A stretch of DNA of 64,000 nt from Tomocerus qinae. Its lineage: Eukaryota > Arthropoda > Collembola > Entomobryomorpha > Tomoceridae. The translations under genes were made by a program, and so were the position numbers. Where the stretch lies: the NCBI GenBank assembly GCA_020055645.1, contig CM034548.1:18724001-18788000 (forward strand). The letters run 5' to 3'. Below are positions 6,278 to 53,900 of the stretch, piece after piece. The notes beneath the pieces are model-generated. The model worked only from the letters and a program-made list of their open reading frames with translations, was not told the DNA's origin and searched no databases. Position 1 is the first letter of the stretch. Each line of letters opens with the position of its first letter.

Positions 6278-7860
6278 AATTAACCCACTCCCTCAATGAG
6301 TAACGCAAGTGTTGACTGCAACACTTTTGGGTACCTCCTCCTCCCATCTACTGCACACGTAATATATTCAAATTCCTTAAAACCAAAAATGCGCAAGCCC
6401 ACTTCCTCTAAACCGCCGAAACGAGTCGTCTCAATATGACACCACAACAATCTTTACTACCACATAAACGTAAAGTGGGGCATGCGCATGAAATTCTGCT
6501 GAACGTAGTATGTACCACCATATAATTTTGTAAATATGTCCGTGCCGTTTTGTAATGACTATAGACTACTAGTACTGATTTTGCTTTACATTTCAACACG
6601 CTTCTTAGGCATCAAAAATTGGTCTACTAAGTAGTGAACGGTTAGTTGATTAATCATCTATCTAATAAAAACTTAAGGAAGAAGTTTTCATTTGGGTGAT
6701 GTCCCTAAAATGAGCAATGCGCAAGTCCGTATATATATACTATGCTTCTTCTAACATCAGGTTTCAAAATACAACTTCTGTGTTAAGATCTGGTGTGTGA
6801 TTATTTCAAAACTAACAACATCTTTGATTTTGATTGTGCTTTGTGTTTGTAGTATATATGCATGTTTTGTATTGCTTTTCGGGTATTGATTGTTTGTTCA
6901 TCTATGACTGAAGGTAAGTATCTTTCCTAACTTAAAAATTGTCGACTTGGATTGTTTTGCGAAACTTGCGAAACTTAATTTAAGCAACAGGACTAATGCT
7001 GCTCAGAAGCAGTTTCTCTTGAAAATTTTGAAAATCAACTTGGTAAGTATATTTGGGTAAATATGGGATACCTTTAGTTTCAATATGAATCAATTACTAC
7101 TAGAGGGGGCGGAGATTGCCCCAGACGGGGGGTTACGAGCCCCCAAAACATTTGACTGGCTCAAAATGGTTTGAAATAACATTTTTACATACCCTTCGAT
7201 AGACTCAATGGATTTCAGCATTTTGAAAATTTATAGCGCTATTTTAAAATTCAGGACATTGTGCTATGCCATAAGCATAGTAGTTTACTAAGGCAAATAG
7301 CAATGATTTTTTGGGATTGTTGTTATTATATGGGATGGGTTGCCTATTGAATTTCTCTTGAGTGCTAGGTTCGTCCATTTGCTGGGTTCACTAGTACGTA
7401 AATAAGAAGAGAGTGAACGGTCTATTTATGAAATTCTTATGCGCAGCCGCTAGAAATTTATTTATTTCAACATTTTTCTAGCACACTGTACTAGGTCTGC
7501 AGCTAGTCTCTACAGGGTCATCACTTATCCCCCGACCACAGCTCAACACAGACTAGATATCAAGAAGGCCTATATGCCACCTTGTAGAAAGTCTTTTTGT
7601 AAATTTAAGCGACCCTAACACAATGCAAATTGGTTAAGAAAAACCGGGTAAAAATGTTTTTGAAAATAAAAAGTTGAAAATTCATCGACCGCCTGATGGA
7701 CACTACGGCGGACCGAAACTCGGCTGTTGAGTCTATCTTTTTAATGTTTCAACTTGCAGCGTTAATAGGAAATTTCAAATTTAAGTCAAATCCGCTCTTT
7801 CTGGCACGAATGCACGTCCGTGCCAGTAAGCCTTAGTGTACAGTACACAGCGGGTAGGTA
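6278..7860. other. Non-coding upstream DNA with a candidate small first exon
   Basis: No long coding exon is visible. At 6904-6913 the short stretch ATGACTGAAG is followed by a consensus donor, GTAAGT. Its phase matches the acceptor at 9133-9134 upstream of the TMX2-like gene, so it could be an alternative first coding exon (see that gene). A TATA-rich stretch lies near 6729-6742. A GC-rich patch near 7100-7145 looks like an old repeat but shows no termini. Confidence 0.4.
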
Positions 7861-8450
7861 GTCGAAAATCCAATACCTAGTTGCAAAACGTCGCTCTCGG
7901 TCCTGTAAAATTGAAGCAGCCTGGCTTGGCAAATTCAATTTTCAATCAAAGACAAGTGATTTTTGAATGCGCAGTTGAGTTGAGGATATATTGAAGTTCG
8001 TGAAGGTAAGTTTTATTTATGTACTTTCAACTTTTGACTTTTAATTGTAATGTTGAATGTTATTTTAAATAGTCGAAAACCCAACATCTAGTTGCAAAAC
8101 GCCGCTCTCGGTCCTGTAAAATTGAAGCAGCCTGGCTTGGCAAATTCAATTTTCAATCAAAGACAAGTGATTTTTGAATGCGCAGTTGAGTTGAAGATAT
8201 ATTGAAGTTCGTGAAGGTAAGTTTTATTTATGTACTTTCAACTTTTGACTTTTAATTGTAATGTTGAATGTTATTTTAAATAGTCGAAAACCCAACATCT
8301 AGTTGCAAAACGCCGCTCTCGGTCCTGTAAAATTGAAGCAGCCTGGCTTGGCAAATTCAATTTTCAATCAAAGACAAGTGATTTTTGAATGCGCAGTTGA
8401 GTTGAATATAAATTGAAGTTCGTTATTTTAGAATTGAATGTCATTTTAAA
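7861..8450. repeat. 211-bp tandem repeat, about 2.8 copies, carrying splice donors
   Basis: Three units start at 7861, 8072 and 8283, each beginning GTCGAAAA, so the period is exactly 211 bp. The copies are almost identical through the GCTCTCGGTCCTG, TTGAAGCAGCCTGG and GCGCAGTTGAG words. Units 1 and 2 contain GTGAAG|GTAAGT, a consensus 5' splice site, near 8007 and 8218. Unit 3 loses that segment and decays after about 8425. The array lies about 0.7 kb before the acceptor of the TMX2-like gene, so it may be a multiplied promoter or first exon. Confidence 0.85.
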
Positions 8451-9175
8451 TATATTCATATCGTACTATCAATATCAACTATTGACTATTTCATGTTTAC
8501 GACTACGACTTAAGACTCCGTAGATCGTGCAAAATGTTACATAACCATTTTTTAATCATAAAACCTGAATTTTCAATGTGTACCACCATTCCACTAATTC
8601 CATCCATTTTCCTTAGCTTTCTATTTTCATTATTATTATTTGTCATTTATATTATTGAAATATTAGTTATTTCATGTATGTATCGTACACCGTATTAGCG
8701 GAAAATCTCATATGTTTTTGACATCAGTCAGTAATAAATTAAAATTGTTGCTCTAAAATAGTGAATAGTGACTGAAGGTTTACGTTACATTTTTACTCAA
8801 AACATATGATATCGTAATTTCAAATATCATTGGTCATGACTGAAATCCTAATTTTGAATGTACTGCTTAGTAAACAATATTTTTTCCCGAAAATCTGATA
8901 ACTTTGAATTTTGAAAATTTTTAAATTTAATTGAAAACTACTAACTAATCAAACCTACCAAATAACAATGACATTCAGAAAATTAATTCATAATTACTAT
9001 TGGGCATTTTAATTAAAAGTATCTTAGCCATTTTCTTCTAGGGAAACTAATTGTGAATGGTGTATGATGACATGGGATGTAATTTTGAATTGCAATAACA
9101 GAATCTCTATTAATTGTGATTTGAATATTTTCAGTTCCTAATAATCTTCAATACGTTCGTCAACAAATTATCAAT

Positions 9176-12584: not shown

Positions 12585-13857
12585 TATATGTGGTAGTATA
12601 ACTGTGCCCCATGTACAAGGGCGCCATTGTACTAGTATAACTGTGCGTAGCGAGTTATACTAGGATAACCGACCCTCGGGGTTTCAGTACAACTGTTCCA
12701 CGCTTTAATACATTGCAAAGCCTGAGTTAATTAGACAATTATGCTACTTTATAATGATATGATAATAATTTATGTTAAAAATCTTATTAACTTGATTTAC
12801 TCAGTCAAATAGTGATAATTGCAAAAACCAAATAATTAACATAATATTGGTAGATACGTGAAAGAACAATCAATTGCATTTAACATTCTTACATGTATTG
12901 TCAACATGGTACTTTGTACCACAGGGTATGTCATTCTTTCTACATGGACATCTATTAGTTTGGCAATCCGTCTTGCATTTGCAGATTGATTGTCTACTGA
13001 AGGAAGTTACCCACCTTAGGGCAGTGATGTACTTAATTGTATTAGTTGGCCATGCCGCTGTGTTTATTTCGGCTGACCAAGTTCAAACTTTCGATTCGTT
13101 GATCATGCTTTTTATTCCAACACATTTAAGGGCCATTGCAAAATCAAAAAATAATATCATACATTCATGAATAAATGTGAGCAGGTAATAAAAAATTATG
13201 AAGACATTTCCTTACCGGCATTGTCATGGTAGAATGTCATCTCCTTAAAAAACTGACTATGGTTTAATATTTTTTTGCCACCGCCTACAAATGTTAAAAA
13301 TTCAGTTCCATTTTCTATATCAATCTTATACCTCTGTCGGACTCGAATCGAAAGTTTGAACTTGGTCAGCCGAAATAAACACAGCGGCATGGCCAACTAA
13401 TACAATTAAGTACATCACTGCCCTAAGGTGGGTAACTTCCTTCAGTAGACAATCAATCTGCAAATGCAAGACGGATTGCCAAACTAATAGATGTCCATGT
13501 AGAAAGAATGACATACCCTGTGGTACAAAGTACCATGTTGACAATACATGTAAGAATGTTAAATGCAATTGATTGTTCTTTCACGTATCTACCAATATTA
13601 TGTTAATTATTTGGTTTTTGCAATTATCACTATTTGACTGAGTAAATCAAGTTAATAAGATTTTTAACATAAATTATAATCATATCATTATAAAGTAGCA
13701 TAATTGTCTAATTAACTCAGGCTTTGCAATGTATTAAAGCGTGGAACAGTTGTACTGAAACCCCGAGGGTCGGTTATCCTAGTATAACTCGCTACGCACA
13801 GTTATACTAGTACAATGGCGCCCTTGTACATGGGGCACAGTTATACTACCACATATA
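12585..13857. mobile_element. Foldback-type element with two 514-bp inverted arms
   Basis: The left arm 12585-13098 and right arm 13344-13857 are reverse complements of equal length. I found one difference (A at 12764), so identity is near 99.8%. A 245-bp spacer separates them. If the flanking TATA is the target duplication, the mobile unit is 12589-13853, starting TGTGGTAGTATAACTGTG. Each arm contains an inner hairpin, CTAGTATAAC...GTTATACTAG, near its outer end. The same 75-codon frame occurs in both arms simply because they are copies. The near identity implies recent insertion or arm homogenisation. The transposon superfamily is not evident. Confidence 0.88.
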
Positions 13858-25251: not shown

Positions 25252-25309
25252 ATTATGTCTATTAGTCAAACAACAACCTATATCAATGTTAACAGCAATA
25301 AGTAAATTC

Positions 25310-25452
25310 AGGCATTAAGCTTAATGCCTAGGCAATAAGCTTAATGCCTAAAAATGCCCGGCATTAAGCTTAAAGCCTAGTCTTTAAGCTTATATAATGC
25401 CTAGGCATTAAGCCTAATGCCTGAATTTTACTCGGCATTAAGCTTAATGCCT
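25310..25452. repeat. Array of 20-bp AAGCTT-centred palindromes
   Basis: The perfect palindrome AGGCATTAAGCTTAATGCCT (25310-25329) is followed by imperfect copies at 25330-25349, 25359-25378, 25380-25402 (degenerate), 25403-25422 and 25433-25452. The flanks AATTCAGGCATTA (from 25305) and TAATGCCTGAATT (to about 25427) are also inverted to each other. The block could extrude as a multi-stem cruciform or form hairpin RNA. It starts 59 bp after the neighbouring MITE. I see no target duplication. Confidence 0.85.
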
Positions 25453-26940
25453 AGTCTTATTGCCTGATTTGGGTGGAAATCAATGTAAACAACAAAAACT
25501 TAAGTCTAACACACACAGTCGATGTGTATTTATGTAAAATGTAAATGTACACGGTTAGGGTTAGTCATTTAAAACAATGTGGGATTTTTACATGTATTTT
25601 AATTTCATAAATTTTACAAATGTTACCACCTCCTCCATTCGGATTTTCCATACTGGAAAACCGCATCAACTGACATCCTAATATTTGATATATTCAACTC
25701 ACAACTAAAATGACATCAATTCTTGCGACCCATGTCTCAAGTTGATTCATTTTGAAATTATAAATTACAAATTGTGATTTTGGTCTACTTTTTATGCTAC
25801 AAGGGCTCCGTTTATATCGTTTATCTATAGACTATGATTTATGATGTGTAGCTGTGGACAAAAACCCGTACTGTGGTAACAGAGCCCATATATTGATCAA
25901 ACTGCCACAAATCATTACAAATGGTGTCGTTTGTGATGATCGGGCCCCCTCAACTTTCGAAATTAAATGAAAAATCGCAAATGATGGCACCTTTCAAGGG
26001 GATGCCGAGCCGCCGAGTGTGCCTTTTTTATTGTGTCCGGTGAAAACCCAATAACTAAAAGCAAGGATTACTTTCATTAAAATTAGTAGCTTATTATTCT
26101 TAAACACTATCCCTTAATCAACTTATTACTTTCCTATGATGACATTAATAAAAAGAGAGATTGCTGAGGCGAAAAAGTGCCCAATCATAGAAAAAGAAAA
26201 ATTCGCATAGCTGGAGAATAGGATAGAAATAGATGGTTTGGAATTTTACTCAAATAATCTACCTATGCTAATTCACGGCAACTCTCAATTCAATAAACAA
26301 TCTAATTTTGAAAGCTTTCAGTTATACAACTGTAAAAATTTATGTTGAACTGAAGACCATGCATCCAATTTTCAACGATTAGAAAGAAATATCATAAAAG
26401 GGAGAATACATAGCAGATGACACGTTTAATGTTTACAGAAGAATGTCTTTTCTAAAAAATACTGAAATCAAAAAACTATTATTTTATTAAGCGATTATGT
26501 TTTGTCCAAGTTCAGCTAAAACTGGAATTTTTTTCCCTTCTAGTTCGATGTTCTGGACCAGTTATAGTCAAATTTATCAAGCTCTTGGATACGTGATATT
26601 TGCCTCCATGAAAAATAATTGTCTTTAGCTTTCAATTGGTGGGTAATGCATATCTAATTTTGGGGAAATCCATCTTTAATATTCGATTTCCGATTTTGCT
26701 TGAGGCTTGAGTGCCATTTCATAGATTATAATAATTAATCTAATAGATAGACAGAATGGGATTAGATTAGAGTGAAGTTAATTAAGTCAGGTGACTATTT
26801 AGTTTTGATATCTATGCCAGGTATGCCAAGTGTTGGAAATTGAAATACGCCTCCCAGTTAGTTAATTGGTTGCCCTTAGTCTTAAACCTTATATGAAATG
26901 TAGCTATATAGCATTAATACAATATTATAGTCAATCTATA
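25453..26940. other. Intergenic DNA upstream of MDH2
   Basis: No exon is recognised. The sequence is AT-rich with no clear repeat termini or RNA gene. Confidence 0.45.
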
Positions 26941-27240: not shown

Positions 27241-29587
27241 ATGTTTTCACGGCTTTCAAAATGCCCTCAACTTCTCACCATCGGATCCAAAAATTTCTCC
27301 ACCAGCGGAAAGGTAACATCAATATCCTACTGACCTATTTATTTTTTCACCTTCATACCTACAATGTTGCGTAATTTGGGAGTCCTCCCTACTGTAAAAA
27401 TTTCATTTTCATTTGGGAAATTACTAAATAAAATTATATTCTCCTTTTATCATTCATTAATGGCCTCATAGTTATTTTTTGAATGTCAGGTAACACACTT
27501 TTCAGCTGGCTGCAAATATAATACCTACCTACATCTGATATTCAACATTAATTTTATGAGCCGTTTCTTTAAGTAATTAAGTATTTGTACCGGACCATTA
27601 TTTTTATTAAATAGTAAATATTATTTTATTGCTTGGTATATAAATAAAAATATTATTGTATTGTGTTATATTTGTAAGTTCGACATATAGTAATATATAT
27701 AGGCATTCGGCATTCTCTGTATGAGTGTACAATAATTGAAAAACTGCAGTCGTACAGTATACAGTTGGAAAAATGTCAAGATGACGAAGAAACACGGGTA
27801 GGATTTGCAAATTATTATAGTAACACCATTCATTATGCAAAATAAGAGTATGTTTCGGTTATATTTATCCTAGAAATGTTATGAGAATCCGTTCTGTCGA
27901 AGTGTGTAGAAGACGAAGCTAAAAATAGACATTGCAATTGTGATATGCTGTACTATGACTTGATGGTTATTTTCGTACTTTGGAAAACAATATTGTCATG
28001 TGTTCCTATTAGATAAGAACATTAGCTAACCCATTTAAATGAAGAGTATTTTATATTTTATAAGCCGTGTACTTTAGATATGTATTATGAATGTCCCTAT
28101 TTTCAATATATTTCTTGAATTGTAGCAAAATACCAAAGTAGCTGTGATGGGAGCCAGTGGAGGAATCGGCCAGCCCCTTTCTCTGTTGTTGAAGCACTCT
28201 CAGCTCATTAGCGAATTGTCTTTATACGACATTGTCCACACTCCGGGGGTTGCAGCTGATTTGAGCCATATCGAAACGAGATGTAAAGTCCAAGGCTTTG
28301 TCGGACCAGATCAACTTTTGGATTCTCTTAAGGGATGCGACTTGGTAATCATCCCTGCTGGCGTGCCAAGGAAGCCTGGTATGACTCGTGATGACCTTTT
28401 CAACACCAATGCTTCAATTGTCAGAGATTTGGCTGCTGCTTGCGCTCAAGCCTGCCCAAAAGCACTTATTGGTATCATCTCCAACCCGGTACGACGTCAA
28501 CTAATGCTTACAATTTTGCCCCGTTTCTCAATCTTATTGCATAACGCCCTTTTCAGCGTGTATTTATTTCCCCTTAGTTAGTAATTAAGTTAGTTAGTGG
28601 ATTGGAAATATTAATTGTTTGTGAATAATAAACAGGTCAACAGCACTGTACCAATCGCATCTGAAGTCCTTAAGAAGGCTGGTGTTTATGATCCTAAGAG
28701 AGTCTTTGGCGTATCCACATTGGATGTAGTGCGAGCCAACACTTTCATTGCTGAAGCCAAGGTGCCGATTTATTTTTATTTTCCACAGAGTTTTAATTTT
28801 ATTGATCCAGTGTTATTAGACTGGAATGATATTATTATTTGTTTTTACAGGGATTAGACCCCTCTCAAGTGAACTGCCCAGTAATTGGCGGTCACTCTGG
28901 TGTGACGATCATTCCACTTATTTCTCAATGTAAACCAGCTGTACAGTTCCCTGCCGACCAGTTAAAGGCACTCACAGAAAGAATACAGGTATAAAAGACC
29001 ATCAATTATTCTGGGGATTATTACATACCATAATGTGGCAATAATTAAATCCATATTCTCAGATATATTACATTTAATTTTTTATACTTTTAGGAAGCTG
29101 GTACAGAAGTTGTGAAGGTGAGAAGATAAATATTCTAATCTATTTAAATAACAGCCCTTTTATGTTTTATTTTGATTTGTTTTACTTAAATGACTTTGTG
29201 ACAATAGGCAAAGGCAGGTGCTGGATCTGCTACTCTTTCAATGGCTTACGCTGGTGCTCGTTTTGCCTTCTCTGTTCTCCGAGCAATTAAGGGTGAGCAG
29301 GGTGTGATCGAATGCTCCTATGTGAAATCTGATGTCACAGAAGCTACATATTTTGCTACTCCAGTGGTCATTGGTGTAAGTCATTCATTCTTAAATTGTA
29401 CATTATTTGTAAATAGAAAAATGTTATGTCATCTGCTTTCATAAAATATATTTTGCAGCCCAATGGAGTTGAGAAGAATTTAGGCTTGGGAAAATTGTCT
29501 AGTTTCGAACAAGATTTACTCCAGAAAGCTTTGCCAGAATTGAAGAAAAACATCCAAACAGGAGAAGACTTCGTTAACAAGAAATAA
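27241..29587 (+). CDS. MDH2: Malate dehydrogenase, mitochondrial
   Basis: Seven exons: 27241-27312, 28126-28488, 28636-28761, 28851-28988, 29094-29117, 29208-29375 and 29459-29587. They encode 339 residues (human 338), and all six introns are phase 0. The enzyme interconverts malate and oxaloacetate with NAD in the matrix, in the TCA cycle and malate-aspartate shuttle. Exon 1 encodes a basic, Ser-rich import presequence of about 24 residues. The NAD fold motif GASGGIGQ is at 33-40, and substrate arginines lie in RKPGMTR (106, 112) and VVRAN (178). The Asp-His catalytic pair is D175 and H202 (GGHSG). Exon 5 has only 24 nt. The donor after exon 3 (GTGCCG) is weak, but protein continuity (AEAK then GLDPS) demands it. 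Nothing suggests inactivation. Confidence 0.97.
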
Positions 29588-31038: not shown

Positions 31039-34000
31039 TCAGATACTGGTTGCTTTTCCCTCCAAACAGACGTAAATATCTTTCACATACCCCATTACTT
31101 TCTCCCATGCTGGACGTTCGTTTGATAACATTTCTTTAATATCCTACAATGAAACAGTGTAAGGCATTTAGTGAAAAATTTTAAAATTAAAAAATAGTTG
31201 TAGAAATTGTAGGAGAAAAGAAAACTTACAAGACTCGTTTCAATATAAATAGACTCTGCCGCCTGGAATGCAATTTTAAAGTTTTCTTCTCTGTTGTCTG
31301 GTTTCAATGTCTCATAGGGAATTTTATCCGGGACGAAAGTATGCAGAAGGGCACACAGAGCCATACCATCATTCCAAGACGTGCTGAAATTGGTAATATC
31401 GATGTACTTGTAACCGAGTGTTCGATTCTGACACCATTTTAAGAGTGCATTTCGTTTAGAACCGCCGGTGATTTTGACAAGAGCCGTCAAAGGATCCACA
31501 CGTTCTATAAATTATATTATTCCAAATATTATATTTCATATTTTATGGTTTGCATTTTCAACATTAAATTACTTTAATGAAGAAAGGACGAACCAATTTC
31601 GCAGTAACTGTTTCGGCGAACATCAGTGTTAGACGAACTGACTTTGCAAAGAGATTTATTGAATGCGATAGGGCGTTCAGGGGTGGAGGATTTCGATATT
31701 TTATTCTCGAGGTGAGATTCAGTCTTTTTTGGGTTAGCCTCTGCAGCATCAGGGATTTCAATTAAACTTTTAGGACTGGAATCCAGATTTTCTTTGTCGT
31801 CTGACGCGCAAAATAAGATCTCGACAGATGGAGAGTCCAAATCTTGACAAATTGGTAAGCTATTGGATTGAAACTGAGAACTGTCCTCTTCATCCACATA
31901 CGTGTTTCCATTTTCTAACGAATTGATTCTTTCTCTAAGAATGACGTTCTCCTTGTGAAGCCTATCTGATGTTTCCTGAGCTTCAGTCTTAAAATCATTA
32001 GCCGCTCGCACAACTAGCAGCAAATCAGATTGGAATTGCTGCCATTCTTCTCTCTCAGCGGCTATAATGGATTTTTCTTGAGACAAGGCCCTTTCCAATG
32101 ACTCGCACTGCTGCTTCCATTGCAATAATTCTAATTCCATCTGGCAAATGACATTTCTTAGACGTAAATTATCTCGCATTTCCTGTTGATACTTCTTTTC
32201 CACATTGTGACAAGCATCATGAGCCTGTATAATTATATTTAACCCATATTACAACAAATATTCTTTGTTTTATAAACAATAACCATTGGGAATAAATTTT
32301 ACCTCGCTTAAATCTTGAGATAACGTTGTATTTTCAGAAGCAGCCTTCGTCAAGCGATCTTCTAAATCTTTCAAGACTTCTTTAGAATCACTTTGCAATG
32401 CAGATATTTCGTTTCTAAGGTCGCTAACTTCCAGTTTCTTAATACGAACTTCTTCCAGAGCATTTTGAAGCTTCTCATGACAATCTTGAAGGTCAGCTTC
32501 TAAAAGACTCCTTTGTTTTTTAAGCTCTTCAAAATCCTCGCTAGACCACAATTTACATTATTTAAATACTCATGCATTTTTATGATTGCAACAACAAAGT
32601 GAAATGTTTCCTCACCTTATGTTAATTGCGGGTTGTAAATTTCTTTCCTCAGCTTTTAATTTCTCTTGTTGAACCAGATCTTCGTATTTACTTTTGACGA
32701 TCTCGAATGATGATTGGATTCGTTGTAATTCAATTTGGTGAGACGTCTGGGTTGATTTGAGCTCATTGAATTCCGACGTCACCTTTTCCTTTTCTTTCGT
32801 GACTTTGTCAAGATAATTTCGGTGGTTTGATATCTCTTGACGCAATTCGGCAATTTCATTGCATTTTGTTTCTAATGTTTGCTGCAACTGATGAATATGC
32901 CCATCCAAAGACTCGCTTTTCTTTGCAAGGACTTCCTTTTCATCTCTCAGTGACTACAAATACATAAAACAAATTAGCTCACAACTTTTCATACATGAAT
33001 ATGGATGAGACGACTTGCACATGAATACATTATTATGGTGAAGGCAATCAATTAGGAATAAATTATTCAGTGGTGTAATAATGGAAATTACACCACTACT
33101 CAAAATGAGTCATTTGAAGGCCAACTAGTGCAGCACAGACACAGATAACAGAGACAAATAGAAACGCTATTAGAGGCTTAGACCTACCTATGTACATAAG
33201 TTACACAAACACTCAAGTGGGGAGTGATAAAAATGTAAAGTAACAGGTAAATACAATCAACCAACCAAAAGCAAGAGAAAATACGTCAAAGCAATAACAG
33301 ATTAGTTCCCGATATTACATATGTATCCTTTTAGCAGAACATTATTAAATGGCTAAAAATATCATCCTTAAGTGGCATCAACCTGGGCAAATCAAAGATA
33401 TACCTTTATGTAGGACTGTAATTCTTGAATTTGATTTCTCTCCCTTTCTTCTCCAGCAGCTGCAAATGGAGATGGCAGTCGTTGGTTATTGGTCACATCC
33501 GGCAAGGCAATGTTTAATGAAGACGGGCTGGTTGCATCACCAACAATGCTTTCCGCGTGTGTTCTTTAAATTACATAAAATTACAATTAAACCACACCCA
33601 AAGAATTTACTTCTAAATCGAATACCATAATTACTGCATTGACATACTTGTAAAAGTTAACTTTTTCACTCAGATGGCTGATAGAGTCAAGCAGAACGAA
33701 ATTCTCATCGCGTAGTTTTTCATTCTCGACTCTGAGCTCGCTAGTACATTGATGGGAGTCAGATAGTTCTTTCAGAGTAGCCGCAAGTTCTTCGCTGGTA
33801 CTATGATGAGTCTCTTCCATCTGAGTAATCTTATCTTGTAAACAAGCTACTGATTTGGATATATTTGTAGATGTCGAAACTCCATCCCATTCAGGCCCTG
33901 ATGATTTATTGCTCTGATTCTTTTTTCCTCCATCCCGGAATGACAATTTTAACGCCAATTGGTCATTAGACCGTTTCAGCGTCTTTTCTAACTCCCTGTT

Positions 34001-42478: not shown

Positions 42479-45400
42479 ATGTCCTCAGAACCTGAAAAAA
42501 ATACAACTAAAGAAGATTTGTCTTCTCCACGAAAAGTGCCCTTGACAATATCTAAATCCAGAGTCACTTTTGTCTCTCCAGGAGTAGTGGATAGCGAAGG
42601 ATTTCTAGCTCCTCCTCCGCAATCAACATTATTGATAAGACGAACGAAGACTAACAATTCCTCAACATACGAATATGAGTCCCATTTAGGTAAATCACTC
42701 TAATAAAACCGTTAAAACGTAAACACCAAACATATAATTATCTTAAGAAAGAATCCTGTTCACATTAAGAAAGCGTTTAACTTTTTTATTTTTGGACAAT
42801 GGAGAATAGAGTAGTTAATTAATTTTTGAATATCTTACTGAATAGAGAAAGAGAAAATGTCAAATTATAACTGTGAACGAATACAGCATCCCTCAAAATG
42901 TTGTTGAAAATTTCATGTTCAGTTTATTTTGATGTCAATTTTAGGACGAGTAGAGGCCGGATTTAATGCGCCGGGTCAAAAAGCATCGCCAATTCGTAGA
43001 GATGGAAGTGTTGGCTTACCATTCTTTGATAGAAGTAATCAGCATACTTCTGCTCTTGCAAGTTTGGAAGATTACAAATTGCGCTGCAGTCCTGGTGACG
43101 ACATTCAACTAAAAATTCCAAAATTATGCTTAAAGAGAGTTAACGTTAAGGCTAATCTTCAGCCTCCAACACTCCTTGTTAACAAAAGAGGTCCCCGAGG
43201 AAAGTATAAGAAGAAGAACAAAAACGTTGATGTGTACAGAGTCAAACGCCCGTATACAAAAAACGTTAATGCGGACAGAGTCAAAGGCCCAGATACAAAA
43301 TGCAAATTAACAGATGAAACTGAACGGAAGTTGGTTGATCATGATTCCCCTTTGGAAAAGAGTGACTGTGAAAATGATGACGCCAGTGATGGTAGAAAAC
43401 CATGTCTATCTGATAATGGGATATGGCGACCAACAGATGATTTGAGATTAATTTCTAATGTAATACAGGTAAGACAAAAATGGTCATATCTACTATAAAC
43501 ACATTTCTTAAGTTATAACCTATAACATAAATCGTTAATAAACCTCAAATATTTTATGCCGTGTGCCGTATATCTATAAAACAATTTATTTTGTGTTTTT
43601 ATGTAGACTTGTAACTTACAATATGTACACATCGGAGTAAAGTTTTCTTGTGTTTTTACTCTTGAAGATATTAAAACACGATGGAAAAGTTTGATGTATG
43701 ACGAAAAGATTTCTAATACTTCCAAAACAGCCGTTAGAAAACTTCACCCGCTAGTCAAAAATAAAATTCTAAGCGCTGTCCTTTTCAATGATAAAGAAGA
43801 AGATTTGCTAAAAGCCGTCAACGAAGTACTAACATTTTAAAATAATTTACTCTAAATTCCTCTTTAAATAACAGTATCATTGGTTTCAGGATCGATTGGG
43901 AAATGAAAATCTAATTTTTTTTGAAAAACTGTTAGAAGACAACAAAGATATCTTCTACAAGACACGGACACCAAAATCACTTTTCGATCACTGGCTCCGT
44001 TTGAAAGAACTTAGCTTGCTTGACGCCAATATTGGTAAAATTTTACTCAGGATTTTAGAACTATCTAACATTTTTTGATTAATTTCAATTTCACTTAAAT
44101 ATTTTTTAACTATTGTAGAACGACCACCACTAGAACGTTTTGAAAGTTTTGAAATGGAAGTGGATGACAAAATGCTTTTGAAAGAACCGTATGACGCAGG
44201 AGTATTTCGAGAATGGAAGAAAGTGAAAAGGTACACTCAAGACACTGATAAGGCTCCTTTCTAACTTTTTATGTTTACCTACTATAACTATCAAATGGCA
44301 TGACTAAGTAACAATTCCAGTGAAGGCTTGATTGAAAGCATTATATTATTGAGTAGCATGAATGAAATGAAGATATAATATTAATCCAAACTATTAGATT
44401 AAAATTATATTAAAACCCAATTAGATTAAAATAAATAAAATCAGAATCCGATTAAGGTTGCTCATCGCGCCTACAGAACAATAACATGGGACTATCAAAA
44501 TGCATGTTAAAAAATGTTTTACATCTGGCTCATTTCCTCCCGAAGGATAAAAAACATAAATAAATGGTGCGAAAACATCAAAGTTTTATAAAAACTAAAA
44601 CTTAGTTTTTTGGGAATTTGCTTTTTTAAAAGCATTTAAAGTAACGATTAACGATGTCAAAAATCCAGCCGCCCTCGTTTGTTCTTCGATAGTCCACGAT
44701 TCCAAAAATGGAAGTCCCATAAAAATCGGACTTATCTTTCGAGAGCAATTGAGCCAACATGCATTTTAATAGTCCCATGTGATTTCAATGCAGGTGCGAT
44801 GAGCTTCCTTAACTTGAATTGGATCACAATTTTGTTATATCGGATTGTGTTATGCACAATGTGACATTATTTAAAGTCCAGTAATTTAGGCACCCATCTT
44901 TTATTGAGGTGGTTTATTTTTGTAGCAGAGGCTTATGACAAGAAGACGTTTTTAATTGAATTCCAGTTTGAGAAAATGAGTAACTTTGGTTCGATACTTG
45001 GTAAAAAGTCTTCAAATAACTTTAGAAAGCGCACAGGTTCTTTAGAAACTTTAATACGCGCCGTTGTTAGGTATCTTATCGAGGTCACAGGTTATTGACA
45101 TTTCTTCATCTGGACACAAACCATACAGACGCAAGAACGTCATTTCCCTACCGATTCTTTATCTAGATTAGTGTTAACACAGTTTAATGTTATTTAAATA
45201 GGAAAACTTCATAGTAAAAGAAGTAAACGGTCTTAATTTCACATAAAAATGGGAACATCGCGATGTATCGGAGGTTACGTCTTGTATTTACTATACGAAC
45301 ACTGTTAATAATTCCCCCTCACCATAGAGGTTTTGACTAATTCTAACAATTAGACATTTTTTGTTCGTTAATTTCTGATGTCAAATAACTAATGCAAATT

Positions 45401-49400: not shown

Positions 49401-50966
49401 TGGCGTGGTCGTGTTCCCGGCGATCCCGAGAGTTTCCACTTCCAGGAGTCTTCCTACACGACGATGATAATTAGCGTCGACAGCGCATCGCAAAACCTTG
49501 CCGTGTCCTACCTGTGGGGTTTTCATCCACCTTCAATTCAGCAGCCCAACGAAAATTCTATTTCCAAACAGAAAATCTTGGAAATATCCTAGTCGGAAAG
49601 GTCAACAGTCAACACACCCGTTGCGTCCTGCGTAGTCATGAATTTCATTTCATACGAATAAACGAAATGAACGACGCAGAGTTGGGATTGAGAAATGAGA
49701 CATATTATTCTCATGTAGACGACAAAGCAAATAATGCAAAACAAAATATTACAACGAAAAGATGATTGTATTAACTAAGCATTGAGCAGACAGTACCCAT
49801 GACAGCATTTACTTAAGATTCATTTAAATTAGAAAGGTCAAACTGGTTCGTTGTTTGGAACTAAGCTGCTGACGCTTGTAAATTTCAGGAATTGTCTGGA
49901 AGGAAAATGTCATATTAGACTTGTATTTTCATGGGAAGACAACTTGAGAAATCGACCTCGAAAAACTGGCATCATTTACTTTTTACAGAGAATTGAGTAT
50001 AATATGACGATGACCATGGGAAGATACTGAAAACTCATGTTTAATAGTTTTTCTTTGTTTTATTTCAATTTCCATGAATAATAGGCTGATTGTTTGGTGA
50101 AAGAGATTTCAATAGGTACGTAGCAGTAGAGCCGAATCCCAGTTTCACAAGTAAGCAGAGGACGACGACGACGCCATGAAAATATCGACCTAATCTGATT
50201 CTGCTCCTTTCCAAAGCAACTCGACTGATAGCGATAAGATAAAACTGAAATCAGCGAGAGTATGCACTGCTGCGTAGTTCTTTAGTACCTATAATAATAT
50301 AGTTCTGCTAAGCTGGACAGTGTTTTGGGCCAGTGTGCTCCTTGCAACGACGCGAGGTAGACGCATAAATGGTTAGGTCTCTTGTATAATATCTTATCGC
50401 GACAAGAACGTATATTGAGGGGACGGTGTTCGGCATTTACTTCTGCTGCTCTACGATTTCTCCGTGGTGAATTACAGATAGCTTGCAGGAAAAGGTAGAA
50501 GAGAGGAGGCTGTTGGAATATAATGCGCATACAAGGTCGGGCGGTCGAGAAATTGTTGCCGTTTCACTTTTGCTTCAGACATTTTGGATTAGGAGTTCAA
50601 TCCTCATGTGACATGCAGCTAGCAACCAATACAATTTGAATCCAGTTAAATTAACAACGTAAAACATTTGGTTGCATTTGAAGATATTGGTCGTTGGCAA
50701 CTGGAAAAGTTAAACAATAGTTTTTTTGCTTAGTTGACTGACAACAGGAATTACAGACATTATTTAGGTTGCCCAAATTAAAGCTCCGGAACTCGGGAGT
50801 CTGTTTACCGAAGCTAGGATTTCGGGTAGCGACTGACTGTGACTATTCGGGAACTCGGGATGTTATCCCACTTCTCATGTGTTGCAGTTGAATAAATTAT
50901 CTAAGCAGTTGTGTGGGAACAAAATTCTTAGATTTTACAAGTCGCGTTAAAGGATTCATTTAAAAT
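46452..50966. other. Intergenic region between the MCRS1- and PPM1D-like genes
   Basis: Mostly AT-rich and non-coding. A GGAGAAGGAGAAGG purine run lies near 47941-47972. Around 49323-49765 two overlapping plus-strand frames (89 and 83 codons) lie in DNA with more balanced composition than its surroundings; I do not recognise either product. Near 50771-50855 CGGGAACTCGGGA-type words recur just before the phosphatase gene and may be part of its promoter. Confidence 0.4.
46684..46689 (+). terminator. Candidate MCRS1 polyadenylation signal
   Basis: AATAAA 232 bases after the MCRS1-like stop codon, at a plausible distance for its 3' UTR. Use is not shown. Confidence 0.4.
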
Positions 50967-53900
50967 ATGGAGGCAAGTATTGGAGTTAACTTGCGGGTAA
51001 CTGCTCACTCTAACCAGGGGGGCAGACGGTATATGGAGGACATGTTCTGTGTCGCATATCAACCAACCACTGACGAACGAGACCTGCTTTATGCCTATTT
51101 TGGAATTTTTGATGGCCATGGTGGCCGAGACGCTGCTCTTTACGCAAAAACTCATCTCATGGATGAAATCGTCTCTCAAAAGAATTTCTGGGCCGACGAC
51201 GATGAGTCAGTATTGAGAGCTATTCGCGACGGATTCATTAATACTCACTACGCTATGTGGAAGGAGCTGGGTAAGACTGTTAAATATTCAATAATATTTA
51301 AATTTAACTCTCATAGATTGATAAAATTGGAGATTCACTTCAAAATTGACAAGACAAAAATATTGTCACATCATTTCTTTAAAATTTTATCTTGATTTTA
51401 GTTGCTATTGTCAAATTCAGGGGATCAAATTTCTAGATTGAAAAATTTCAAAATAATACATCAATAATTAGCAACTATAATAAGAAATGATATTTAAAAA
51501 ATATATTTTATATAGCAATACATAATTTTGGCAGTTCAATAAATTATAAAATTTTGTGGACATAAAAATTAAACATTACCCTTAAATTGCAGAGGTTTGG
51601 CCGAAGACTCAGTCAGGTTTACCATCAACATCAGGGACAACTGCAAGCGTTGCTTTTGTACGCCGAGGGAAGCTATACATCGGTCACGTTGGGGACTCGG
51701 CTATTGTTCTGGGGTATCAAGATCCATCAAGTGGTTATTGGAGAGCTCGACCGCTTACTAAAGATCACAAACCAGAAAATGCACAGGAAAATGCTCGCAT
51801 AACCCAGTAAGTAAAATGTCTTAAAAATGTTAATAATTCTAGTTTACATAAATTACCAAAATCAGTAATTTACTTAAGACGAGAAAATGGTAAAGAAGAA
51901 AAATTTACCTATTTATCTATTTACTTGTATCCGTTCGCAGTTGCTTGCAGGGCGATTGTACTGACATGGGTAAAATATTATATGGTTTTTAAATTTGAAA
52001 ATATTATTTATCTGGCTGTAACTAATGACACTGGACAACCAATAATATAAAAATACTCAAATTCTAAGAACATATTTAATCATTGCAATTGAATTTAAAA
52101 TTTTAATTAAATAAAATATGCATAGTTGAGTTTCTATTTCTTATTCTCGTCATTTATTTTTAAAACTTTCTCAGATGTGGTGGCAAAGTCATCAGTAAGT
52201 CAGGCGTTCCAAGAGTTGTGTGGAATCGACCACGTATCGGCCACAAAGGTCCTGTGCGTCGATCAACTCCAATTGACGAAATCCCTTTTCTGGCTGTTGC
52301 TCGCTCGTTGGGTTAGTATGACATTTTAATTGATGTAATTGTTTAGAAAGTTTAGAATTTAGATGACAACAATTTTGCTGTCTGTAGGGGATTTGTGGAG
52401 TTACAACTCAACACAAAATGAGTTCGTCGTTTCACCTGTCCCTGATGTGTCAGTGTATGACATTGATGTGACTCGTCACCGATGTCTTATACTCGGAAGC
52501 GATGGATTGTGGAATATGCTGAGCTGCCAGGATGCGGTGAATGGAGTCTATTTTGCAGAGAAGAATAACGAACGGCAACTTTTGGCTGCTCCTCCACACG
52601 TTTCCTCGTCTCAAGTGAAGAATTGGATCAACCCATCGAAAAGACTTGTAGACAGAGCATTAGACAAGTGGTGTCACCATAACCTGCGTGCGGACAACAC
52701 GTCAGTTGTCACGGTTGTCATTGATCCTCCAGGACCTCCTAAGGCCCAGGTATTAAACAGATTATTCTCATTTATACTAAGTTACATAAATATAAAAATA
52801 GCATCTAGCTATATATGCTTTTCAGTCCGTTTCTCATTTACTCTAGTAAACAATAGCAATATTGTCAGGATATGCATATATATTCATAACGACATAACTC
52901 CAAAATATTTTGCTACATTTGAATACAAATGGTTTTGTTAAAGTAGACAAAAAAATATATTCGTGCGTTTTAATTAACTTTTTTTATCATGCCTAGTCCC
53001 TAGTACATAATATGGAATATAGCCCATATTATGGCTTCTGAATTACGACTAGGAAGGTAGGAAGGCACACCTGTGTGACATAATATCTAAATAAGCGAGC
53101 TAGTACCGCCTTTTCTTTCTTGACTGAAGAATGTAATACAAGATGAAATAAAAGATTTTCCAGGAAAAGGAAATAATACTGGCCACTGGCATTCTTTAAT
53201 TTGATTTAGATCTTGCTCAGGGCTCAGGCTTCAGTAGAAAAATAGCGAAGTAATTGCAATATATTTGGTGGTGGTATAGAGCACACAAGCACATACCACA
53301 GCAGCAATTCATTTGTTTTTATTAAAGTAGCACGCTACATTTACCAAATTGAAATTACCTTTCACATTATCAGGCTATTTAAGATTAACAGAGAATTAGT
53401 TTGGATGAAAATTTAAGCCCGAAAAATATTAAAGACAATTTTGATTTACAAAGCCTAAAGTTGTCGACTACTACTAGTCGAATTTTGACTTTTGAAAATT
53501 TTCCCAAAGGCTTATATTTTCATCAATCAGACGGCAATATTTTAGGGTAGAAGTAGTACTCGTAAATCAGTATGATCCTATAATAACGGGTCATACTGAT
53601 TTTCTGTGTATGAACTACAGGTTTTGCGACAGAATCAGCGGAGTCAAATGTTTCAGCAGGCGAGCGTTGCAGCAGTTGATTCAACCACGGCAAGGTCTCA
53701 GTCATCATCCGGCAGTTCGCCATCTTCTTCTCCGATCTTCAGAGCTGCACGACCTATGCCGGCAGGTCCACATCTTCCTCCAAACTACCACACGAACTAT
53801 CACCGCACACCAAGGCACAACGCGTCAGCTTCCATTGGAGACAAAAGGTTACCCAGACCAGTAACTGTGGATCCAGGTAAGCCAAGGAGCTCTCATCCAA

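Follow-up and report, generated by a model that had tools for sequence, protein, structure and literature searches.

A probable non-autonomous Ginger2/Tdd transposon in Tomocerus qinae, with long arms apparently copied from its own 3' end

A nearly perfect inverted repeat of more than 500 bp in the genome of the collembolan Tomocerus qinae raises the questions of what kind of element it is, how it was formed and how its two arms have stayed so alike. In the stretch of 64,000 nucleotides analyzed here, referred to as the window and situated in contig C3, positions 12585-13098 and 13344-13857 constitute inverted arms around a spacer of 245 bp, and the arms differ at one site (12764, A vs T), just as had been described in an earlier interpretation made from the letters alone (hereafter the sequence-only reading). 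The arms are also equally long, as stated there, but the 514 bp given for each includes a 4-bp TATA that is a target-site duplication (TSD); the arms proper thus measure 510 bp with one mismatch, and the element itself, at 12589-13853, measures 1,265 bp. The list for the window comprises 11 inverted pairs of at least 30 bp; after this one, the longest measures 82 bp at 73%, which excludes a chance origin of the palindrome. Taking all data together, we consider it very probable that this is a non-autonomous Ginger2/Tdd transposon, shaped by deletion of its core, copying of its 3' end onto its 5' end, mobilization in trans and later copying between the arms. Its parts are as follows, with the evidence for each in parentheses.

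12585..12588, no strand: left copy of the TSD, TATA (TATA on both sides).
12589..13098, minus strand: left arm of 510 bp, which is the element's original 3' end, read in the transposase sense, with the last transposase codons (Cys-rich tail), the 3' UTR and the terminal repeat TGTGG (arm identity; alignment of the tail to the related element L030).
13099..13343, minus strand: spacer, a contiguous piece of the 5' part of the parental gene, joined to the 3' part by an internal deletion (alignment to the family copy L032).
13216..13343, minus strand, within the spacer: piece of the first coding region, ..VRQRYKIDIENGTEFLTFVGGGKKILNHSQFFKEMTFYHDNAG (alignment to the N-terminal portion of the L030 transposase).
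13106..13215, minus strand, within the spacer: the non-coding rest, which starts with GTAAGG and reaches to the deletion junction (same order in L032, ahead of the integrase core).
13344..13853, plus strand: right arm, 510 bp, where the 3' end has been copied in inverted form in place of the approximately 280-bp 5' terminal repeat, the 5' UTR and the gene start (1 mismatch to the left arm).
13854..13857, no strand: right copy of the TSD, TATA (comparison of the 4-bp duplications).

The segment at 13106-13215 is probably part of an intron; L030 has no intron at the corresponding place. Short internal repeats are built on GTATAAC motifs.

The remainder of the window holds several further items. 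A second inverted repeat of 82 nt, 73% complementary and with its halves 247 nt apart, is found at 44427-44508 and 44756-44837 and is possibly an old MITE. At 7859-8491, a 211-bp unit is repeated three times head-to-tail, the second and third units being 98% and 76% identical to the first, and short palindromic repeats built on GGCATTAAGCTTAATGCC are clustered at 25304-25466. Pieces of eukaryotic genes were identified with Pfam in four frames, i.e. a lactate/malate dehydrogenase frame (28126-28581), a calponin-homology frame (31095-31511) and two PP2C frames (50964-51395 and 52363-52941). A tRNA search of the window found none.

By employing the left arm as a query against the genome (334 Mb in 115 contigs), we obtained at least 45 matches, with 40 scored out of 202 candidates, and this family count is to be read as a lower bound. 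The locus is consequently not unique, whereas a unique locus without an empty-site allele was what the sequence-only reading had named as speaking against it. The regions compared were 20 around the better matches, supplemented with L029, L030, L031, L032 and L033. Left out of the counts of both terminal inverted repeats (TIRs) and TSDs were L016, L019, L021, L022 and L028, whose retrieved stretches lack a clear second end, together with L029, L031 and L032, in which one end is missing. The truncated copy L009 enters the TIR count and not the TSD count, while L030, from a related family, enters the TSD count and not the TIR count.

A matching 4-bp duplication was found in 15 out of 17 copies, the window included; in L025 it is one base off, and in L033 the left end was not found. 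Besides TATA, the duplications comprise TATG, TTTA, TAAA and CATA, carried by four family members, and as these are not palindromic they fix the TSD length at 4 bp. The target site in the window reads C-TATA / TATA-T, with one departure from RTATAY, i.e. an outer left base that is not a purine. Printed beside the duplication without imposing any pattern, the ends read TGTGG, TGTCG or TGTCA, with TGTGG in the window. The left end was matched in 16 of the 17 copies, but since the pattern required TGT[CG][GA]TAG, this number tests the position of the end and not its letters.

Coding remnants in both the arms and the spacer connect the element to a transposase. The Cys-rich tail of the arm, in the right-arm sequence, aligns to the C-terminus of the L030 transposase with 43 out of 70 residues identical (E 4e-26); the left arm shows this frame too, and a stop just upstream of TWSAE breaks it. 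In the spacer, a frame aligns to the N-terminal part of the same transposase (17 of 43 residues identical, E 4e-9). Pfam gave only a sub-threshold preSET_CXC match in the arms, and phmmer gave no credible match for the C-terminal frame against PDB; the tail may resemble KRBA2-like host genes. That the spacer might be a captured host exon was also considered, and dropped, as Pfam and PDB searches with a hand-joined frame gave nothing useful and the spacer aligns as transposon coding sequence.

L030 itself is 2.84 kb long; its TIRs measure 145 bp (95%), its termini read TGTGG and TATA is duplicated at its flanks. Its first long frame (exon 1), of 478 aa, contains the Pfam domain rve above threshold (E 4.5e-9), whereas Integrase_H2C2 scores 25.4 bits against a cut-off of 25.5 (E 1.6e-5), with H-x4-H and C-x2-C visible. 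The protein matches PFV integrase with an E of 9.5e-20, and its catalytic triad has the spacing D-58-D-37-E. By sequence comparison (61% in the tail), L030 is placed in a related family, separate from that of the window. Within the latter, L032 carries the terminal repeat of the window at 93% over 317 bp, and the window spacer aligns to its positions 789-1027 at 95% over 240 aligned positions, except for about the last 7 spacer bases. Past this segment, L032 continues into an integrase core at 1061, which is broken, in pieces 69%, 67% and 42% identical to L030; in its triad, the spacing of 37 lies within a single frame, while the spacing of 58 crosses a hand-made join and does not count as evidence. 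Broken core segments aligning to L030 are also found in L025 (arm 88%; 65% over 99 aa) and L033 (arm 84%), and a short one in L013. In the window copy the integrase core is absent, having been deleted.

Several candidates for a complete copy were examined and rejected. The 9.2-kb L018 has ORFs that, by eye, look like BEL/Pao retrotransposon coding sequence; a copy with extended arms that contains a nested insertion is the probable reading. The 4.9 kb of L022 probably also include nested retrotransposon sequence, again judged by eye. In L029, what follows the 5' end is a degraded remnant plus an unrelated ORF, and L031 has N-terminal codons and a degraded finger but no Pfam core. Of the two things that the sequence-only reading had proposed to look for in the genome, other copies were found, but no intact autonomous partner with ends near-identical to those of the window among the regions examined, i.e. 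the 20 around the better matches and L029-L033. A separate observation concerns C1:79081118-79108898, where a transposase N-terminal probe matches six times in a span of 28 kb, with identities of 35-68% and no stops in five of these matches; this may be a cluster of Ginger2-like copies or a host gene array.

According to the accessible text of Bao et al. 2010 (PMC2836005), Ginger2 elements have TGTNR ends, 4-bp duplications (5 bp in TDD-4/5), RTATAY as the preferred target, and H2C2 and DDE domains; Table 2 of the same source gives TIRs of 45-297 bp, with TDD-4/5 included, and lists the 252-bp Ginger2-1N1_NV, probably non-autonomous to judge from its name and length. The window element shares the TGTNR termini and the 4-bp TSD in an RTATAY-like sequence. 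A DDE integrase-type core is found in its family (pieces in L032, L025, L033 and L013) as well as in the related L030, where H2C2 stays 0.1 bit below its threshold. What differs is that the terminal repeat of the window has grown to 510 bp by an inverted duplication that includes coding sequence, and that its family has a conserved Cys-rich tail; the term CXC does not appear in the accessible text of PMC2836005. We therefore assign the window element to Ginger2/Tdd, a probable assignment that draws on termini, the 4-bp TATA-type TSD, coding remnants and integrase-bearing relatives. The sequence-only reading had found no superfamily that it could name with confidence and had suggested an undescribed long-TIR or foldback family, a view not supported by the same set of features, from the TGTGG ends to the integrase relatives.

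Long near-perfect arms, internal GTATAAC repeats and a palindromic, AT-rich duplication open to reading as a TA would also suit a foldback element or a MITE of some other superfamily (Tc1/mariner, Galileo/P, Mutator or Polinton), or an undescribed family. Given the non-palindromic 4-bp TSDs in four family members, and the integrase-type character of both the coding remnants and the core-bearing relatives, we regard this as highly improbable. Tc1/mariner with a TA duplication is ruled out by those same TSDs. A foldback of the Galileo type would have a P-superfamily transposase and a 7-bp TSD, where we find integrase-type coding sequence and 4 bp, and Ginger1 needs CCGG or CCGT/ACGG as its TSD, where we find TATA, TATG, TTTA, TAAA and CATA. 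IS481EU, IS3EU, GingerRoot and Polinton share integrase-like DDE transposases, IS481EU having in addition TGT...ACA-type ends and partly 4-bp TSDs. As given in the accessible portion of a 2023 article in Biology (PMC10045372), IS481EU, IS3EU/GingerRoot and Polinton have no HHCC motif ahead of their core, the ends of IS3EU and GingerRoot are mostly TA..TA and their TSDs 6 bp, and IS481EU comes from parabasalids and has TSDs of about 4, 15 or 25 bp. The 6-bp duplications of IS3EU, GingerRoot and Polinton and their lack of the HHCC motif, as given there, argue against these as the source of the window element (PMC10045372).

The palindrome of the window is present also at a second locus, C1:85.93M, in the copy L009, where both junctions and the spacer are as in the window and the flanks are unrelated. 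A genome search allowing up to 2 mismatches located the 5' junction at exactly two places, against 0 matches for a reversed control. Perfect palindromes are a known artefact of certain library and amplification methods, so that an assembler duplicating one arm, or a chimeric inverted read, could in principle give rise to such a structure. The same structure at two loci makes this unlikely, however, and as the window palindrome moreover stops exactly at the TATA duplication, with a spacer that is a parental segment in the correct order, we consider an assembly artefact exceedingly improbable. The two loci also suggest that the palindrome probably moved as a unit; as one end of L009 is truncated by its outer 122 positions, the TATA among them, this copy offers no TSD as proof that it arrived by transposition. 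At about 985-1001 in L009, past the break of the truncated arm, an isolated ACCGACCCTC was noted by eye, suggesting a repair scar.

How the palindrome arose may be approached from the repeat lengths within the family. In a sample skewed to long arms, as copies were picked by arm score, 11 out of 17 copies have inverted repeats of 239-295 bp, L033 has 162 bp and five are extended, namely the window (514 bp with TATA), L009 (392 bp, a truncated copy), L014 (615 bp), L015 (381 bp) and L018 (488 bp). Several other copies retain N-terminal codons upstream of the spacer segment. These comparisons suggest that an autonomous parent, with TIRs of about 280 bp and encoding an H2C2 finger, a DDE core and a Cys-rich tail, would have lost its core by internal deletion. 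Double-strand-break repair or a template switch may then have copied the 3'-terminal 510 bp, inverted, onto the broken 5' end, with a near-perfect palindrome as the outcome. By eye, microhomology amounts to about 1 bp at the joint of the inverted copy and to about 2 bp at that of the internal deletion, which suits end joining or template switching in break repair; we infer the route, as well as the order of these two steps, from the finished structure. A transposase supplied in trans would subsequently have moved the palindrome, giving the TATA duplication here and the sister copy elsewhere, and gene conversion or arm-templated repair may since then have carried changes from one arm over to the other.

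A comparable growth of terminal repeats is known from Galileo (Marzo et al. 2013). In the 2RT copies of Galileo in Drosophila mojavensis, according to the text accessible to us, TIRs are longer than those of nearly complete copies and adjacent internal sequence has been recruited to the opposite end in inverted orientation, which was explained by recombination or conversion between the ends, and the copies with the longest TIRs are non-autonomous (PMC3573991). The window element, likewise a non-autonomous copy, has a TIR that grew by taking up internal sequence in inverted form. Galileo differs in belonging to the P-element superfamily and in making 7-bp duplications, and in the Ginger2 element of the window homogenization shows itself in mirrored substitutions when two copies are compared. 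Literature searches, in which subscription journals were thinly covered, brought up no report of a palindromic derivative or a repeat extension of this sort for Ginger in the text that was accessible.

The family shows a second series of end rearrangements in L014, L015 and L017, which are 98-99% alike and differently rearranged by nested inverted duplications, positions 1-1041 of L014 being the inverse of 242-1282 of L017. The idea that L017 represents an unhomogenized state preceding L014 and L015 was dropped, as its first 245 bp form a 99.6% inverted repeat.

The comparison of the window with L009 bears directly on the likeness of the arms. Over 1,151 aligned positions there are 7 differences, of which six form three mirrored pairs (element coordinates 166/1108, 297/977 and 326/948) and the seventh is a single change in the 3' arm of the window copy, while the spacer differs at 0 of 245 positions. 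Under independent change, the chance of three such coincidences is roughly estimated at 7e-9. At position 297 the derived state is that of L009 (T in 14 out of 14 other 3' arms), as it is at 166 (T or G in the others, A in none), whereas at 326 it is that of the window (C in 14 out of 14 other 3' arms). Mirrored changes are thus derived in both lineages, meaning that mutations were copied from arm to arm after L009 and the window had split. Arm-to-arm homogenization of this palindrome is thereby indicated by sequence comparison of one pair of copies. The copying may have taken place at the locus or during transposition; the mirrored changes could have come about by re-copying of the palindrome from one arm at each transposition, and not by conversion in place. 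Of the alternatives left by the sequence-only reading, i.e. a recent insertion or ongoing homogenization of the arms, both find support, the element being a recently spread long-TIR element with mirrored substitutions between the window and L009.

One could instead hold that the palindrome is perfect through extreme youth alone, with no conversion involved, as might be argued from the one mismatch in 510 bp, from the spacer shared unchanged with L009 and from the fact that most other family copies lack a clear sign of homogenized ends. Youth predicts independent differences between the arms, however, and with six of the seven differences falling in mirrored pairs that are split over both lineages we find this explanation very unlikely. 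In a crude measure of distance over 285 columns, a stretch that extends beyond the short repeats, only 6 out of 15 copies (L011, L018, L023, L025, L026 and the window) had a smaller distance between their own two ends than from these to any other copy, with one tie (L015); by this measure, no family-wide rule of homogenization was seen across the 15 copies. A broader idea, which we put forward as tentative and on balance doubtful, is that the palindrome is a recurrent and self-maintaining state of this Ginger2 family, in which the 5' end is replaced time and again by the 3' end, the product stays mobile and the arms template each other. Three extended sets fit this idea (window/L009, L014/L015 and L018), with mirrored changes examined in window/L009 only. 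If it were true, an element free of coding sequence could keep two matched transposase-binding ends indefinitely.

The sequence-only reading had also foreseen that a transcript through the unit would fold into a very long hairpin, and the computed fold agrees: as single-stranded RNA the whole unit forms one hairpin of more than 500 pairs, with a minimum free energy of -977 kcal/mol (computed without a shuffle control). Together with the homology to many family members, this might suggest a functional host locus, in which the inverted repeat is kept as a source of double-stranded RNA (endo-siRNA) directed against the Ginger2 family. The transposon anatomy and the TSD suffice to explain the structure without selection, and Rfam gave no match at the gathering threshold in the window, so that we judge a host function very improbable. 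Even as the transposon copy that we take it to be, the unit, if transcribed, would give rise to double-stranded RNA with matches to many members of the family, and it is a possible source of siRNA, as the sequence-only reading had suggested.

With the probable assignment to Ginger2/Tdd, a previously unnamed foldback is placed in a known superfamily, and the extension of TIRs by copying of an end, documented in Galileo, is indicated in an integrase-type transposon too. The length of the TIR, often used as a character in classification, spans 162-615 bp among the measured copies of this one family. In the pair formed by the window and L009, a natural experiment on a small scale, arm-to-arm conversion may be counted against mutation, at three mirrored changes to one single change.
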